Of a stretch of DNA of 64,000 nt, positions 36,486 through 45,512 are shown piece by piece (position 1 is the stretch's first letter; each line of letters opens with the position of its first letter). The stretch lies in the NCBI GenBank assembly GCA_020724265.1, contig DYHH01000001.1, positions 192,674 to 256,673 of the forward strand. The letters are read 5' to 3'. Both the position numbers and the translations under genes were made by a program. The DNA is from Melioribacter roseus. Lineage in GTDB: Bacteria; Bacteroidota; Ignavibacteria; Ignavibacteriales; Melioribacteraceae. Under the pieces are notes generated by a model that ran no database searches, was not told the DNA's origin, and saw nothing but the letters and a program-made list of their open reading frames with translations.

Positions 36486-36570
36486 GCGAGAGTGGCGGAA
36501 TTGGCAGACGCGCTAGACTTAGGATCTAGTACCGCAAGGTGTGGGGGTTCGAGTCCCCCCTCTCGTACCA
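36486..36570 (+). tRNA. tRNA-Leu (TAG)
   Basis: An 85-base class II tRNA with a variable arm. The acceptor stem is GCGAGAG with CTCTCGT (one G-T pair), discriminator A at 36567, CCA encoded at 36568-36570. The D arm is TGGCGGAATTGGCAGACGC, the anticodon loop ACTTAGGAT with anticodon TAG, the variable arm TACCGCAAGGTGT, and the T arm GGGGGTTCGAGTCCCCC. Trigger factor starts 31 bases downstream with no terminator between. Confidence 0.97.
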
Positions 36571-36600
36571 TATTCCTTCTTAAATAAATTCGAGGTTAAA

Positions 36601-37899
36601 TTGGATTCTAAAGTTAATGTGCTTGGTAGTTATGAACATGAAGTTGAAGTAACGCTTTCTTATGACGAAATTAAAACAGATATTGACGACGCCTATAAAA
36701 AGGAACGAAAAAATATAGAACTTCCCGGATTCAGAAAAGGTAAAGTTCCGATGCAAATGCTAAAAAAAGTTTATGGTGAAGCAATTGAATATAAAGCCAG
36801 CGAATCAATTGCACAAAAGAAATTTTGGGATGTTGTTGAGGAGTTGAAATTGAATCCTATCAGTATGCCTCAGTTAACTGATATTGATTTTCAAATGGGG
36901 GAGAAACTTTTCTTTAAAGTAAAATATGAAGTTAAACCTGAAGTTGAAGTAAAAGATTACAAAGGTATTGAAGTAGAAAAACCAATTTTCAAAGTAAAGG
37001 AAGATGATATTGAAAGAGAAGTTACAAACCTTTTAAAATCTCATTCAAATTTTCAAGAAGCTGAACTTATAGATGATGATAAATTCAGAATAACTGTTGA
37101 TTTAAACAGAATTGATGAAAATGGTTTACCAGTTGTTGGACAAGGTCAACAAGATATGTTGATTGATTTGAGTGAAACGAATATTAATCCTGCTATTTTG
37201 GAAGGTGTCAGAGATAAAAAAGTTGGTGATGATTTTAAGTTTGAGTTTGTTGATGAACATTATCACGGCGAAGAACTGCATCGTGAAGAATTCAAGTATT
37301 CAGGTACAATCAAGAAAATAGAAAAAATAGTTCTTCCTGAAGTAACCGAAGAACTTTTATCAAAAATTTCTCGTTCAAAAGCAAAAACTCTTGATGAATT
37401 TAAACAGCAAATTCGTGATAACTATTCTTCATATTATAAATCACAAGCTGAAAACATAGTAACAAATTCTTTATTGAATAAAGTAATTGAGCAAAATGAT
37501 TTTCCTGTTCCACCCGGCTATGTTGAAACAATTTTGAATAATCTTGTGGAAAGTGAAAAAGAAAACGCTAAAAGATATAAAACGCCAAATTTTGATGAAA
37601 AAGGAGTTCGTGAGTATTTAAAACCTCGGGCTGAATGGACAGCTAAATGGCAAATAATAATGGAAGTAATTGCATCAAAGGAGAATTTAAAAGTTGAAGA
37701 TTCCGACTTAGAAAAAATTGCCGAAGAAGAAGCAGAGAAAACCGGTATCTCGAAAGAAAAACTTGTTAAATTCTATAAGGATTCAAATAGAAGTATTGGA
37801 TTACTTGAAGAAAAAGTCATAAACTTCTTAAAAGAAAATGCAAATATTAATGAAATTGATGCTGAACAAAGAGCTAAAGAAAAAAAGGATAAAAAATAA
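36601..37899 (+). CDS. tig: Trigger factor (ribosome-associated peptidyl-prolyl isomerase chaperone)
   Basis: A 432-residue trigger factor starting from TTG at 36601, with a GAGG Shine-Dalgarno five bases before it. A longer open frame reaches into the tRNA-Leu gene but would not be a sensible start. It shows the ribosome-binding domain with [20 protein letters not shown] and the signature [14 protein letters not shown] (about residues 40-54), a PPIase-like middle domain, and the long helical C-terminal chaperone domain ending in a lysine-rich tail ([11 protein letters not shown]). It overlaps the clpP start by one base. Confidence 0.95.
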
Positions 37900-38546
37900 T
37901 GAATACAAAAAATCCTGAAATTTATAACCAATTAATTCCGTATGTAATTGAACAAACCGGTCGTGGCGAAAGAGGAATGGATATCTTCTCACGCCTTCTT
38001 CGAGAAAGAATCATTTTCTTAGGAACGGCAGTCGATGACCATGTTGCAAGTTTAATAATTGCACAACTACTGTTTCTTGAAGCCGAAGACCCTGAGAAAG
38101 ATATTTACCTTTATATTAATTCCCCCGGAGGAAGTGTTTCAGCCGGTTTGGCAATTTATGATACTATGAAATACATACGAGCAGGCGTGTCTACCATTTG
38201 TGTTGGTTTAGCTGCAAGTATGGGAGCCGTTTTATTAGCCGGCGGCGAAAATGGGAAACGTTCTGCACTACCCCATTCAAAAATTATGATTCATCAGCCT
38301 TGGGTTGGTGGTTTATCGGGTCAAACTACAGACATAGAAATACATGCCAAGGAAATGATTAAAACACGTGATACCATTTACAATATATTATCTGAACACA
38401 CAGGTAAAACAATTGAACAGATTACAAAAGATTGTGACAGAGATTATTTTTTGTCATCAACAGAAGCTAAAGAATATAAATTGATTGACAGTATACTTGA
38501 AAAAAGAAAAATCCCGGGTGACAAACCCAAGAAAGAAGAAAAATAG
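37899..38546 (+). CDS. clpP: ATP-dependent Clp protease proteolytic subunit
   Basis: A 215-residue ClpP. It shows [48 protein letters not shown], the catalytic serine in [14 protein letters not shown], the catalytic histidine in [12 protein letters not shown], and the C-terminal [22 protein letters not shown] with the catalytic aspartate. It is coupled to tig by TAATG. clpX, often next in this order, is absent; a convergent gene follows. It has a strong terminator. Confidence 0.98.
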
Positions 38547-38626: not shown

Positions 38627-40843
38627 TTACTTGAGAAGAATCATCTTCATTGTTTGAGAATAATTACTCCCATTAACTCCGCTTGCTTCTATTCTATAAA
38701 AATAAATACCGCTGCTTATGGAATTATTTACAGCATTCCATCTTAGCTCATAAGTTCCGGCATTCATGAATCCCTCTTTTAATACGTCAACTTGTTCGCC
38801 AAGTATATTGAAAATTTTCAATGATACATTTGCATTTACCGGTAAATTAAATTTAATAGTTGTTGACGGATTAAAAGGATTAGGATAATTCTGAGAAATA
38901 GAAAAGACATTTGGTAAATCTTCATTTCTTAAATCAATTTCAACACTTGTTGCGAAATCTTCATTACCTAAATATTTAATTGATCTAACAAGAATAGTAT
39001 CTCGTACACTTTTAGAAATTTTATCTAAATCTTCTGGTATCAAAACAAATTTCCATCCATCAGACTCATTATGACTTCTAATACCAGCAATATTGATTGT
39101 GTCTGCTAAGGAGCTGCCATAATATAATACTTTATTAACCGAACCAAGATTTTCAGAGGATAGTTTCATTACATCTTTCCCAGATCCCAAAAACAAAACG
39201 CTAACTCCGTCGCCTATAAAATCTCCTTCAAACCCAGAAATACGGCTTAAAGATGTATTACCAGCAAATTTTACACCGGCAAAGCCTTTTAGCAACATAT
39301 CATTTGAATCAGAATATTCTAGAAAGTTATGCCCAGATATAAATAGCCTATTACCATTGCTTAAATGATTTTCCAATGTATTAACATCATTTTCAGATAA
39401 CCCTAATGTATCTCCTCCACTTATCCAAAAGATAGATAGTGGTTCACTAAACTCATTTAATGCATCAATCGATGGTGAAGTCCCGATATCATCAATATTC
39501 CATCTGACAAATGAAACTCCTAAATCATTAAAACTATTGAAATAGGTTTCAGCAGCAATACTGTTGTTATTATTATAAACTACTAGACGATTTGCTGGGT
39601 CAATACTAATGTTTAAAACAGAATTTGATGAACCAACAAAAACACTATCTATAATGTGAAGAGGTTCAAATGGTGGCTCCAAATTTAGTTCTATTCTATA
39701 GTATTCATTTGCTGTTAATTCAATAGAATAATTTCCTGATTCATTTGTTACAATTGATTGGATCTCATTTGAATCACCTACCCAAACAACATTGACATCA
39801 CTAACAACAGGCGAATTAGTTTTTTTATTTGTTATACTTCCACTTAACTCAATTTTAGGACGTAAAACAAGTTCAAAATTTGCATTGAATTCTTGTGTAT
39901 TTCCATAACCAACAGGCGTGTCAAAATTAACATTTTCTACCTGCGAAGACTCATAACCAAATTTCTCAACTTGAAATGAAAAATTTGCAGTATTCATAGC
40001 AAGTAAATAGCTTCCATCGACTAACGTCGGAGCTTCAGTATAAACTTCACCAGGTCTCAAACCACGACCAGAAGACAATGAAGGCTCAACAGGGCCAACA
40101 TAAGCAGCATAAGTACCTTCGTTAAAAACAAGTTTTGCATTTTCAATTGGGTCGCCTGTTTCCGCATCTGTAATTGAGCCTGCAATAATAAAATTAGGAT
40201 AAATAGCAACAGCACCCATTTCATCATGTAAACCAAGTTCTCTTTTTAATGAACCACGAGCAACTGACCAATACATTACTTGATCAGGTAAATTAAGACC
40301 ACACCCCTCAGAACCAGCACCATTGCTATTGCCAGCGGGTCCATGATGGCTTAAACCCATATGATGACCAATTTCATGTAACGTAATAGTTACCAAATCC
40401 ATGTTATTAGGGTTACCATTTGTTGCTGGTGGAAATCCGGCAGCATTATAAATATAATCTGATTCAATAGCATGGTAACCGCCTACAGTCGAAGTCCTTG
40501 TAGATGAGAATGCAATAGTATTTGATCCTGGAGTAAAATTATCGTAGTTATTATCAAAATACAGTAAGTTTATTCCGTCGGCAAATGCACCATTAGCAGT
40601 TGAACGCGGACCCAAAATAAAATCAAAATAACTTCCTTCAACAGCGTTCCATGTACCTAAAGCATATAGAATGTGTTCGTCGTAAGATTCCGGTGTATCA
40701 ACATTCATTTGAATAACAAATGGTAAATCTTCAGGCCAATAACTTCTATATACACCTTGCGTATTTGTAATTATACAGAAACCGATTATTGCAGAGGCAA
40801 TTAATAGAATTATGGATTTTTGTATTAATGTAATTTTTTTCAT
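38627..40843 (-). CDS. Secreted matrixin-like zinc metalloprotease with type IX secretion sorting domain
   Basis: A 738-residue multidomain exoprotein. It has an N-terminal signal (about 1-30) and a matrixin-type catalytic domain with HEIGHHMGLSH (zinc ligands H156, H160, H166) and a Met-turn region DQVMYWS. Two carboxypeptidase-regulatory-like beta domains follow (IAGSITDAETGDPIENAKL and LSGSITNKKTNSPVV), then a domain of about 200 residues (430-635) with FWISGGDTLGLSENDV and RLFISGHNFLEYSD resembling a ThuA/GATase-like fold. The C-terminal type IX sorting domain starts near 645 with ISQNYPNPFNPSTTIKFNL. The upstream gene is a small secreted protein that may work with it. Confidence 0.9.
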   Translation of the reverse strand: MKKITLIQKSIILLIASAIIGFCIITNTQGVYRSYWPEDLPFVIQMNVDTPESYDEHILYALGTWNAVEGSYFDFILGPRSTANGAFADGINLLYFDNNYDNFTPGSNTIAFSSTRTSTVGGYHAIESDYIYNAAGFPPATNGNPNNMDLVTITLHEIGHHMGLSHHGPAGNSNGAGSEGCGLNLPDQVMYWSVARGSLKRELGLHDEMGAVAIYPNFIIAGSITDAETGDPIENAKLVFNEGTYAAYVGPVEPSLSSGRGLRPGEVYTEAPTLVDGSYLLAMNTANFSFQVEKFGYESSQVENVNFDTPVGYGNTQEFNANFELVLRPKIELSGSITNKKTNSPVVSDVNVVWVGDSNEIQSIVTNESGNYSIELTANEYYRIELNLEPPFEPLHIIDSVFVGSSNSVLNISIDPANRLVVYNNNNSIAAETYFNSFNDLGVSFVRWNIDDIGTSPSIDALNEFSEPLSIFWISGGDTLGLSENDVNTLENHLSNGNRLFISGHNFLEYSDSNDMLLKGFAGVKFAGNTSLSRISGFEGDFIGDGVSVLFLGSGKDVMKLSSENLGSVNKVLYYGSSLADTINIAGIRSHNESDGWKFVLIPEDLDKISKSVRDTILVRSIKYLGNEDFATSVEIDLRNEDLPNVFSISQNYPNPFNPSTTIKFNLPVNANVSLKIFNILGEQVDVLKEGFMNAGTYELRWNAVNNSISSGIYFYRIEASGVNGSNYSQTMKMILLK

Positions 40844-41620: not shown

Positions 41621-43972
41621 ATGGATACCCGAACAAAAATTGAATTAATCAATAAGTATAATTATTTAATTGAACTTGCCAGAAATGGAAACGACAGTTT
41701 CATTAATCATCTCTGTAACTTTTTAGTTAATTATTACGAATACCAATCAACTATACTCTTCAAAATTATTAAAGAAGATACTTTCCAGGTACTTGGCAAA
41801 TCCTCAAACGCGAGAAAAAACTTTTTAACGGGAAGTGAATTTAAATGTAGTGTATGTAAAGCTGCAAAATCTTCATCGACTTCTTTTCATAGTGATTCGC
41901 AATGCGAGCTTCAGATATCCGAATATTTAGTCTATGAAGTATGTTCCAAATTTGAAATTGATCATACAAATTCAGTGTTGATTAAAATTGCAAAGAAAAC
42001 AGCATTCACACAAAATGATTATGAAAATATCGGTAAAATATCCGAACTGATTAAGTATATAATTAAAATCTGGAACGATGCTAAGGGAGGTAAATTTACA
42101 ATCCCAGATCAATCTTTCAATGAGATAGTAAATAGTTCCGTGTTAAGCCTCCGAAATCCGGCTAATTCTATTATTGGGTTTACCTCTATTCTTGATGATG
42201 ACAATTTAACTTCCTCTCAAGCTGAATATATACAAACAATTAAAAAGCATGCACAAGATTTGTTGTCATCACTAAATGATTTGCTCGATATAACGAAATT
42301 CGAATCGGGGAAAATATCCATTGATTTGAGACAGATCGAGTTAAAGAATTACCTGGATGATTTGATAAAATCCTTTTCAGAAAAATATAAGGATAAGCTT
42401 TCTTTCGGAGTTCACATTGACTCTAAATTAAAACAATATTTCTTAACGGATACACAAAAACTTCGATATATATTACAAACGTTAATTTATTCTTCTCAAA
42501 ATTTAGTTGAAGAAGGAAATATTAATATTGTTGTTACTGGAATTAATAATCATCTTAAATTCGAAATTGGTTCTGATACAGGTGGAATTGCAATAAAGGA
42601 TGAGAAAAGAATCTTTAAACCATTTGAAATAAGTCGCATTGAAAAACTTAGACAAACAAACTTAACACCTTTAAGCTTCACTTTGGTTGAAAAATACATT
42701 AATATATTAGATGGAGAAATTGTATTTTCGTCAGATAAAAAAAATGGCTTTAAATTCATCTTCACAATAAAGGGAGAGTCAATGTCTCAATTAGAATCAA
42801 CCTTGTCATCTTTGCCTAAACCGGATAAACACAACAAAGTTTTGGTAATTGAGGATGATTATGCTACCTCAAGATTATTAAGTAACTATCTTAACAAATG
42901 GGGATACGAACCCTCGGTTGTAAGCACAGAAGAAGATACTTTAGACATTATTGAGAGAGAATTATTTTTAGCTGTATTGCTTAATATTGAATTGCCCAAT
43001 ACAAACGGATTAGAGTTGCTCAAGAAACTTAATGAGCATCCGAATTTAAAAAATACCCCGGTAATTGTTTCTGCAGTTGAAGCAGATCAACAAAAAGCTT
43101 TTATGCTCGGAGCCGTTGAATATTTTGTTAAACCGATAAACTACAATTATCTTGTTGAAGTACTAACAAGTTATAAACTCCGTAAAGATTCGAATATTCT
43201 TTGTGTTGATGATGATCTGCCTACTCTTAACCTTTTAAAACAAGCTGTTGAAACAGCCGGTTATTATGCAGTTGCAGAAAATATATCTGCAAAAGTTATG
43301 GATAACATCAAAGATAAAGATATTGATCTGGCAATTATTGACTTAGATATGCCTCATCCAAACGGCTTTGAATTAATAAAAATTATAAAATCCGAAAAAC
43401 GTTTCTCCAATCTTCCAATTATTATTTATACCGGTAAAGAGAATTACCAAGAAGACTTAAAACAAATAGACGGTTTATTCGACGAACTTTTTAGCAAGCA
43501 AAGTACAAACATCGAAGACTTGCAGGAAGTAATGAACTCTATGATTAACCGTTATGAGACTCCCCCTCCTGCCGAAGAAGTTATTAAAAAGAAAGATGTA
43601 ATTAAAATACTTTTAGCTGAAGACTATAAACATTCACAAATAATTGTTACACGTCTGCTTAAGAAAAATAATTTCGAAAATGTTATCGTAGTTGATAACG
43701 GCGAAGATGCTCTCAATTACGCAAAGAAGGAAAAATTCGATTTAATTCTTATGGATATGCAAATGCCGATTATGAACGGGTTTGAAGCAACCGAAAGCAT
43801 AAGAAGATTAGAAGGATATAAAGACGTTCCTATTATTGCTCTAACTGCATTTGCGATGAAGGGTGATAGAGAGAAATGTTTGGAAGCCGGTGCTACCGAT
43901 TACATTCCTAAACCAATCGATAGTAAAGAGTTTATTGATAAAGTGAAACATTATACACACGAAGAAGCTTGA
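41621..43972 (+). CDS. Triple-receiver hybrid protein with degenerate histidine kinase core
   Basis: A 783-residue signalling protein. Residues 1-160: an alpha/beta region with a cysteine cluster (FKCSVCK at 75-80, C95, C108). Residues 165-385: a histidine kinase layout whose H box reads VLSLRNPANSIIGF, with L175 where the phospho-histidine should be. The N box also lacks its asparagines (LQTLIYSSQ). Three receivers follow: 405-520 with N455 replacing the phospho-aspartate (LLNIELP), 525-640 with D574 intact (IIDLDMP) and 660-780 with D712 intact (LMDMQMP). It is probably a pseudo-kinase scaffold or phosphate acceptor rather than an autokinase. No partner is adjacent. Confidence 0.92.
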   Translation: MDTRTKIELINKYNYLIELARNGNDSFINHLCNFLVNYYEYQSTILFKIIKEDTFQVLGKSSNARKNFLTGSEFKCSVCKAAKSSSTSFHSDSQCELQISEYLVYEVCSKFEIDHTNSVLIKIAKKTAFTQNDYENIGKISELIKYIIKIWNDAKGGKFTIPDQSFNEIVNSSVLSLRNPANSIIGFTSILDDDNLTSSQAEYIQTIKKHAQDLLSSLNDLLDITKFESGKISIDLRQIELKNYLDDLIKSFSEKYKDKLSFGVHIDSKLKQYFLTDTQKLRYILQTLIYSSQNLVEEGNINIVVTGINNHLKFEIGSDTGGIAIKDEKRIFKPFEISRIEKLRQTNLTPLSFTLVEKYINILDGEIVFSSDKKNGFKFIFTIKGESMSQLESTLSSLPKPDKHNKVLVIEDDYATSRLLSNYLNKWGYEPSVVSTEEDTLDIIERELFLAVLLNIELPNTNGLELLKKLNEHPNLKNTPVIVSAVEADQQKAFMLGAVEYFVKPINYNYLVEVLTSYKLRKDSNILCVDDDLPTLNLLKQAVETAGYYAVAENISAKVMDNIKDKDIDLAIIDLDMPHPNGFELIKIIKSEKRFSNLPIIIYTGKENYQEDLKQIDGLFDELFSKQSTNIEDLQEVMNSMINRYETPPPAEEVIKKKDVIKILLAEDYKHSQIIVTRLLKKNNFENVIVVDNGEDALNYAKKEKFDLILMDMQMPIMNGFEATESIRRLEGYKDVPIIALTAFAMKGDREKCLEAGATDYIPKPIDSKEFIDKVKHYTHEEA

Positions 43973-44049: not shown

Positions 44050-45510
44050 ATGATTAATGATGTTGTACGTGTACGTTTTGCGCCTAGTCCTACCGGTTAT
44101 CTTCACGTGGGAGGTTTAAGAACAGCGCTCTATAATTACCTGTTTGCAAAACATAATAACGGCGTATTTGTTTTAAGAATTGAAGATACCGATCGCAACC
44201 GTTATGTCGAAGGTGCTGTAGAAAATCTTATTTCAACAATGAAGTGGAATGGACTTGGTTATGATGAAGGTCCCGAAGTTGGCGGGGAATACGGACCCTA
44301 TTTTCAATCTCAAAGATTAGAGATTTATAACAAACATGTAAATGAACTAATCGCAAAAGGTAATGCTTACAGATGTTTCTGCTCTGCCGAACGAATTCAG
44401 AAATTGAGAGAGGAACAGCAAGTTCAAAAACTGCAAGCAAAATATGATAAACATTGTCTTAATCTGACAAAAGAAGAAATTGAAAATAAGATACAAGCCG
44501 GTGAGCAATTTGTCATCCGATTAAATGTACCAGCAAACCAAAGAATTATAATCGAGGATATTGTTCGCGGAAATGTCGAGTTTAACAGTGATACCGTTGA
44601 TGACCAGATATTAATAAAAAGTGACGGCTTCCCTACCTATCACTTGGCAAACGTAGTCGATGATCATTTAATGAAAATCACACATGTAATCAGAGGCGAA
44701 GAATGGTTATCATCAACACCAAAACATGTTTTACTTTATGATTTTTTGGGGTGGGAAAAACCTAAGTTTGCGCATCTCCCATTGCTTCTTAATCCGGATA
44801 AATCTAAACTAAGCAAGCGACAAGGCGATGTTGCTGTTGAAGATTACCAGAAGAAAGGTTACTTAAAAGAAGCGTTGATTAATTTCGTTGCACTGCTTGG
44901 ATGGAATGCCGGAGATGATGTTGAAATTTATGAAATAGAACAGCTAATTGAAAAATTTTCTCTCGAAAGAGTTAATAAAGCCGGTGCAGTTTTTAATGTA
45001 GAAAAACTCGACTGGCTGAATTTCGAACATCTTAAGAAAAAACCTAATGCAGAAATTTTAATAATGTTGAAAGAAGAACTGAAGCATTCCAAATATGCCG
45101 AAATAAATTTCTCGGATGAATATTTACTTAATGTAATTGATTCAATGAAAGAAAGAGTAAATTTTGTGAAGGAATTTATTGACAAAAGTTTTTATTACTT
45201 CGAATCCCCAACAGAATTTGATGAAAAGGTAATTCAAAAAAGTTGGAAAGAAGATACACCGCAACAACTTACAGAACTTCGATCAGCATTCGAAAAAATT
45301 GATAATCCAAAAAAAGAAGATTTTGAAAATGCTTTGAGATCAACAGCCGAAAAATTGAATGTTGGAGCGGGAAAGCTTATTCATCCACTTAGATTAGCTG
45401 TGTCGGGCACCGGACAAGGTCCAGGACTTTTCGATTTACTTTATACACTTGGTAAAGAAGAAGTTATAAAAAGAATCAACACTGCTCTTGAAACTATAAA
45501 ACCGAACTAA
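44050..45510 (+). CDS. gltX: Glutamyl-tRNA synthetase
   Basis: A 486-residue class I synthetase. The HIGH-like motif is in [20 protein letters not shown], and KMSKS is in [14 protein letters not shown]. It also has [16 protein letters not shown], the zinc-region-like [30 protein letters not shown] and the anticodon-binding C-terminal helices ([23 protein letters not shown]). It charges tRNA-Glu. With glnS next to it, it need not misacylate tRNA-Gln. It is two bases ahead of glnS. Confidence 0.97.
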
Positions 45511-45512
45511 TT

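Follow-up and report, generated by a model that had tools for sequence, protein, structure and literature searches.

A pseudo-histidine kinase with three receivers retained in single copy across the Ignavibacteriales

Within the 64,000 nucleotides of Melioribacter roseus DNA analysed here (the window), an open reading frame at 41621-43972 (+) encodes a 783 aa pseudo-histidine kinase with three receivers, as assigned from the reading frame, Pfam and orthologues in 64 of 65 genomes of the order. With a probability of roughly 0.6, we consider the protein a cytoplasmic pseudo-histidine kinase of an order-wide core family, which would be phosphorylated in trans at receivers 2 and 3, acting as a regulator comparable to DivL or RetS. 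The coordinates and all residues named by a previous sequence-only reading agree with the open reading frame list, Pfam and the alignment; the four-Cys motif, the adjacency of gltX and the retention of the gene in three HPt-less genomes were not part of that reading.

By its fold, the protein is built as an active hybrid kinase, with DHp and CA domains followed by C-terminal receivers (Pfam, AlphaFold2, Foldseek). The DHp (HisKA) helices span residues 166-232 (42116-42316, +; Pfam, alignment, AlphaFold2), yet the HisKA match of Pfam covers residues 177-230, from profile position 13 on and thus past the His position, and alignment with canonical relatives places L175 (42143-42145) in the column of the phosphorylated histidine, as had been proposed. 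The degenerate HATPase_c/CA domain, residues 237-388 (42329-42784, +; Pfam, alignment, AlphaFold2, Foldseek), gives a marginal match of 28.1 bits against a Pfam cut-off of 26.4. There, T287 and S291 occupy both Asn columns of the N box (42479-42493, +), so that the box indeed lacks its asparagines, and NLTPLSF fills the column of the G2 box GGTGLGL (42659-42679, +). The G1 segment DTGGIAI (42575-42595, +) fits two registers that differ by one residue, one of which nominally has D-x-G, but with the second Gly and the spacing off it is degenerate as previously described. Neither the H-box His nor the N, G1 and G2 boxes of an active kinase are thus found. An alternative alignment with a His in the H box was sought and ruled out, as the column is pinned by R178, P180, N182, I184 and G186, and so was a sequencing or frame error, the frame being open and the same Leu being present in the 92% and 74% identical orthologues.

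As phospho-His, N box and G2 box are gone while the fold is kept, autophosphorylation is not expected, and the kinase is almost certainly dead in this species. Judged from its residues, the protein would fall under the definition of a pseudo-histidine kinase as a recognisable transmitter without at least one kinase function (PMC12632262). Such proteins are rare, the H-box His being missing in 0.9% of 76,471 HisKA domains and the Asp in 2.0% of receivers, and few of them are understood; given these background rates, the residue losses of the 783 aa protein appear to exceed chance (PMC12632262). In its own genome the protein ranks 66th of 72 HATPase_c matches, and by pattern matching the H box is intact in most of the other HisKA-type kinases. 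A separate kinase ATPase match of the same genome (G000:C50:117897-118226) lies in an 825-codon frame with an in-frame TGA, possibly a recent pseudogene or an assembly error.

The listed substitutions hold for this species, but not family-wide. Among 74 non-redundant orthologues, the H-box residue is N in 23, Q in 13, H in 11, S in 6 and L in 5, plus others, the N-box Asn is kept in seven, and His and N-box Asn occur together in two (L118, L143). No orthologue possesses the complete catalytic set, so that homologues do not keep the canonical residues as a whole and the proposed inability to autophosphorylate by the usual mechanism is supported as an expectation. With its neighbours at 92% and 74% identity, the window protein ranks among the most heavily eroded members. 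Nearest to intact is L118, with the His, both N-box Asn and G2 present and one G1 Gly changed; it and some other relatives could, by their residues, retain weak kinase activity, so that the kinase can be called dead with confidence only in this species and in the majority of the family. On a receivers-only tree, a quick tree with many forks unresolved, at least 8 changes fall on the His and 7 on the Asn, and because of these several independent changes the catalytic erosion of the kinase core has probably happened repeatedly.

This retention of single residues bears on the possibility of a non-canonical or residual kinase, the core of which would bind ATP or heterodimerize with an intact kinase whose His loads the receivers. 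The DHp/CA fold is retained (AlphaFold2, Foldseek), and His, N box or G2 are still present in several f2-family orthologues, but with N box and G2 lost in this species, the full set in no orthologue and a HATPase_c domain that scores only 28 bits here and has no Pfam match in L138, residual activity is quite improbable.

The three receivers, all detected by Pfam as Response_reg stretches, have fared differently. Receiver 1 (residues 405-520; 42833-43180, +) is a pseudo-receiver in this species, with N455 (42983-42985) in place of the acceptor Asp, as had been noted, and A485 (43073-43075) in place of the Ser that most orthologues have at the Thr/Ser position. Its inactivation, right for this protein, is no family property, since 70 of the 74 orthologues retain the acceptor Asp. 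N455 is common only to the window protein, its 92% identical neighbour, L139 and L140, with three origins on the receivers-only tree, and A485 is also found in the 92% and 74% identical neighbours and in L052; as both are lineage-specific, the loss of receiver 1 seems recent. Receiver 2 (residues 524-645; 43190-43555, +) has a complete catalytic set with D530/D531 and the invariant D574 (43340-43342), T604 and K626, and so has receiver 3 (residues 661-779; 43601-43957, +) with E667/D668, D712 (43754-43756), T742 and K764. D574 and D712 are thus intact as claimed, and from their residues both receivers should be able to take phosphate. The acceptor Asp is retained in 68/68 orthologues in receiver 2 and in 67/68 in receiver 3, where L114:1495-3849, with a Val, represents the sole apparent loss. 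In receiver 3, 14 consecutive residues of the first helix (667-680) and residues 742-749 are invariant in 68 sequences. The first helix of receivers is the usual docking surface for a kinase or HPt, and the invariant stretches suggest a fixed docking partner. H671 (43631-43633), within this helix (EDYKHSQ), is invariant, while the canonical relatives examined have other residues at this position.

Constraint is concentrated in the same domains. In close pairs, dN/dS lies at about 0.01-0.07 for the receivers; for HisKA it is 0.05-0.10 and for the HATPase region 0.06-0.37. These values refer to the estimable pairs only, since silent sites are saturated in many others; wherever estimable, the ratio is well below 1. 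Mean pairwise identity within the family amounts to 0.43 for HisKA, 0.32 for HATPase and 0.72, 0.72 and 0.82 for receivers 1, 2 and 3, as compared to 0.85, 0.64, 0.63, 0.53 and 0.77 in the canonical relatives, of which five sequences only were available. This inverted pattern indicates that constraint has shifted from the kinase to the receivers, which are, on the evidence of these comparisons, under strong purifying selection. A functionless relic of a decaying hybrid kinase, as could be imagined from the repeated loss of His and Asn (8 and 7 changes) and the threefold loss of the receiver 1 Asp, is accordingly hardly credible in view of 64 of 65 genomes each carrying one copy, nearly always with an open frame, dN/dS values far below 1 and the near-invariant acceptors of receivers 2 and 3. 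The triple receivers might also work alone, as an acceptor with several sites or as a sink, with the kinase core reduced to a dimer spacer. The receivers are the constrained part, and neither a DNA-binding nor any other output domain is present; however, the HisKA helices and the N-terminal Cys motif are constrained as well, which suggests that sensor input is routed through the core and makes a stand-alone receiver array rather unlikely.

The N-terminal domain, residues 1-155 (41621-42085, +), has no Pfam match; it is called GAF-like after the succession of its strands and helices in the AlphaFold2 model, thus from topology only. It harbours the motif C76-x2-C79-x15-C95-x12-C108 (41846-41944, +), all four Cys of which are present in 59 of 68 orthologues. 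The four Cys tend to vanish together, as four sequences are without at least three of them, an outcome reached by none of 20,000 column shuffles, which ignore the relatedness of the sequences. Binding of a metal or an Fe-S cluster by this site is, from its pattern of conservation, somewhat more probable than its absence. The AlphaFold2 model, built from the orthologue alignment, retains the DHp and CA folds (pLDDT 80), whereas its domain placement is unreliable owing to a pTM of 0.43; a single-sequence fold of the N-terminus was discarded at a pLDDT of 46. The top Foldseek matches include ShkA (6qrj), DivL (4q20) and RetS (6dk7/6dk8), of which the latter two are explainable without a shared mechanism, as the ancestral fold is retained. 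The 19-residue hydrophobicity mean reaches a maximum of 1.18 without any candidate membrane span, and since no hydrophobic stretch points to one, the protein is probably cytoplasmic.

A first alignment, from a genome scan, comprised 41 orthologues including the window protein at 42-92% identity, from Ignavibacteriales, Melioribacteraceae and related MAGs. Whole-genome searches recovered the gene in 58 of 59 genomes of the same order (Ignavibacteriales) and in 64 of 65 of a second, overlapping sample, with one copy per genome, in one case divided between two contigs. Outside the order, samples of the class and the phylum yielded only distant relatives of 30-35% identity, five of which belong to one other family (f13) of the same class. 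The relatives examined, from f13, Desulforamulus and two paralogues of order members, have all four boxes (H, N, G1, G2) intact and carry three receivers, those of f13 and Desulforamulus also a C-terminal HPt-like stretch. As the closest outside relatives are canonical, the family has, judging from these sequences, most likely descended from a canonical triple-receiver hybrid kinase by loss of catalysis and HPt. With its dead kinase part, its well-kept receivers and its presence in nearly every sampled genome of the order, the protein probably functions as a core relay or a brake that other kinases feed, and not itself as a kinase. While the principle of pseudo-histidine kinases and pseudo-receivers is already known, no description of this family was found in open-licence papers, nor was the combination of a dead transmitter with three receivers, a four-Cys domain and order-wide single-copy retention. 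The near-universal single-copy family, which spans nearly complete to fully eroded sites and has a canonical outgroup, constitutes a good natural series for scaffold and receiver roles after catalysis is lost, and lets one ask why receiver 1 can be given up, but receivers 2 and 3 hardly ever are.

In the mechanism we favour, one or more other histidine kinases would donate phosphate in trans to receivers 2 and 3, the DHp helices would provide the scaffold of a dimer or heterodimer and the four-Cys GAF-like domain might sense a redox or metal cue, while the phosphorylation state of the receivers would set binding to, and restraint or stimulation of, a partner protein (kinase or response regulator), much as in DivL and RetS. 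Phosphorylation of receiver 2 or 3 in trans is the reasonably likely part, whereas the idea that the protein acts, on balance, as an acceptor for or a brake on a partner kinase is put forward tentatively, at somewhat less than even odds. Pfam finds no C-terminal Hpt match, and the protein stops 8 residues past the last Pfam receiver residue, so that it lacks the C-terminal HPt of a triple-receiver phosphorelay kinase. Nor can an HPt elsewhere be an obligatory partner as a general rule, as three genomes of the order without any HPt match retain the gene, where the donor should consequently be a kinase. This genome has two HPt, one located in a 609-aa CheA-sized frame and one in a receiver-HPt protein, which lies in a motility cluster with, by sequence reading, FliW/CsrA/MotA/MotB-type neighbours. 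This genome has 72 HATPase_c matches and thus many candidate donors, which counts against the favoured explanation. A more far-reaching and unlikely version would make the protein a core, order-wide, non-catalytic integrator, in which the four-Cys redox domain, via the dead kinase dimer, gates which kinases load receivers 2 and 3, a phosphate-reading hub without a kinase or HPt of its own.

Conversely, the DHp domain could remove phosphate from a partner receiver through an acidic-x-x-T/N motif, for which the His is not strictly needed. HisKA phosphatase activity is possible without the His (PMC12632262), RetS has transmitter phosphatase activity (PMC5992135), and among the 63 His-less orthologues, 57 have E/D at the next position and 39 the E/D-x-x-T/N pattern. 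The window protein, however, has S176 at the acidic position and a degraded ATP site, so that a phosphatase fits its relatives better than this species; moreover, the comparable DivL, which senses DivK~P, is without kinase and phosphatase activity (PMC4211667), and phosphatase action as a general role of pseudo-kinases has been argued against (PMC12632262), which renders this reading unlikely.

The gene neighbourhood does not contain a kinase or regulator partner of the pseudo-kinase; the neighbours are tig, clpP, an oligopeptidase-like ORF, gltX and glnS. The glutamyl-tRNA synthetase-like gltX (44050-45510, +; named from reading of the sequence) adjoins the 3' end; of 43 loci, among them a few from the same species, 35 have it as the following co-directional gene. 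Many genomes of the order have tig-clpP upstream (36541-38546) and gltX-glnS downstream (44050-47198) of the gene. Pseudo-kinase and gltX look like a conserved transcription unit, which implies no functional link to tRNA charging, and promoter sites in a promoter/terminator scan were no more numerous than in shuffles. Between clpP and the pseudo-kinase, about a dozen loci carry the oligopeptidase-like ORF of 720-750 aa; in the window, 38627-40843 (-) encodes a 738-aa protein with, on reading of its translation, an HExxHxxGxxH metallopeptidase motif and a C-terminus resembling secretion sorting domains.

Among known systems, RodK of Myxococcus xanthus carries three receivers on one hybrid kinase, as here, but is an active kinase; DivL is not known to have receivers, and RetS is membrane-bound with two. 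The canonical triple-receiver hybrids (L128-L132 and Desulforamulus L050) share the order DHp-CA-R1-R2-R3 at 31-35% identity over residues 163-781, but keep H, N, G1 and G2 boxes, have a different N-terminus and end in the HPt-like stretch, which in L128 reaches 20.4 bits, under the Pfam cut-off of 24.6. The Caulobacter pseudo-histidine kinase DivL (PMC4211667) likewise combines sensor domains with a dead transmitter in which the HisKA/HATPase fold is kept and the phospho-His replaced, yet has PAS domains and a Tyr at the His position, as against three receivers and a GAF-like four-Cys domain here. Pseudomonas aeruginosa RetS (PMC5992135), the structures of which match at 21-23% identity, resembles the model proposed here as a hybrid restraining another kinase, from which it also takes phosphate, and differs in its transmitter phosphatase activity and domain make-up. 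Caulobacter ShkA (6qrj; reviewed in PMC8534201), the best match both by Foldseek and by sequence in the PDB, is also cytosolic and a hybrid, in which a canonical receiver comes after a pseudo-receiver, REC1, but it is an active kinase gated by c-di-GMP, while here the kinase is dead and only few species have a pseudo-receiver in first position.
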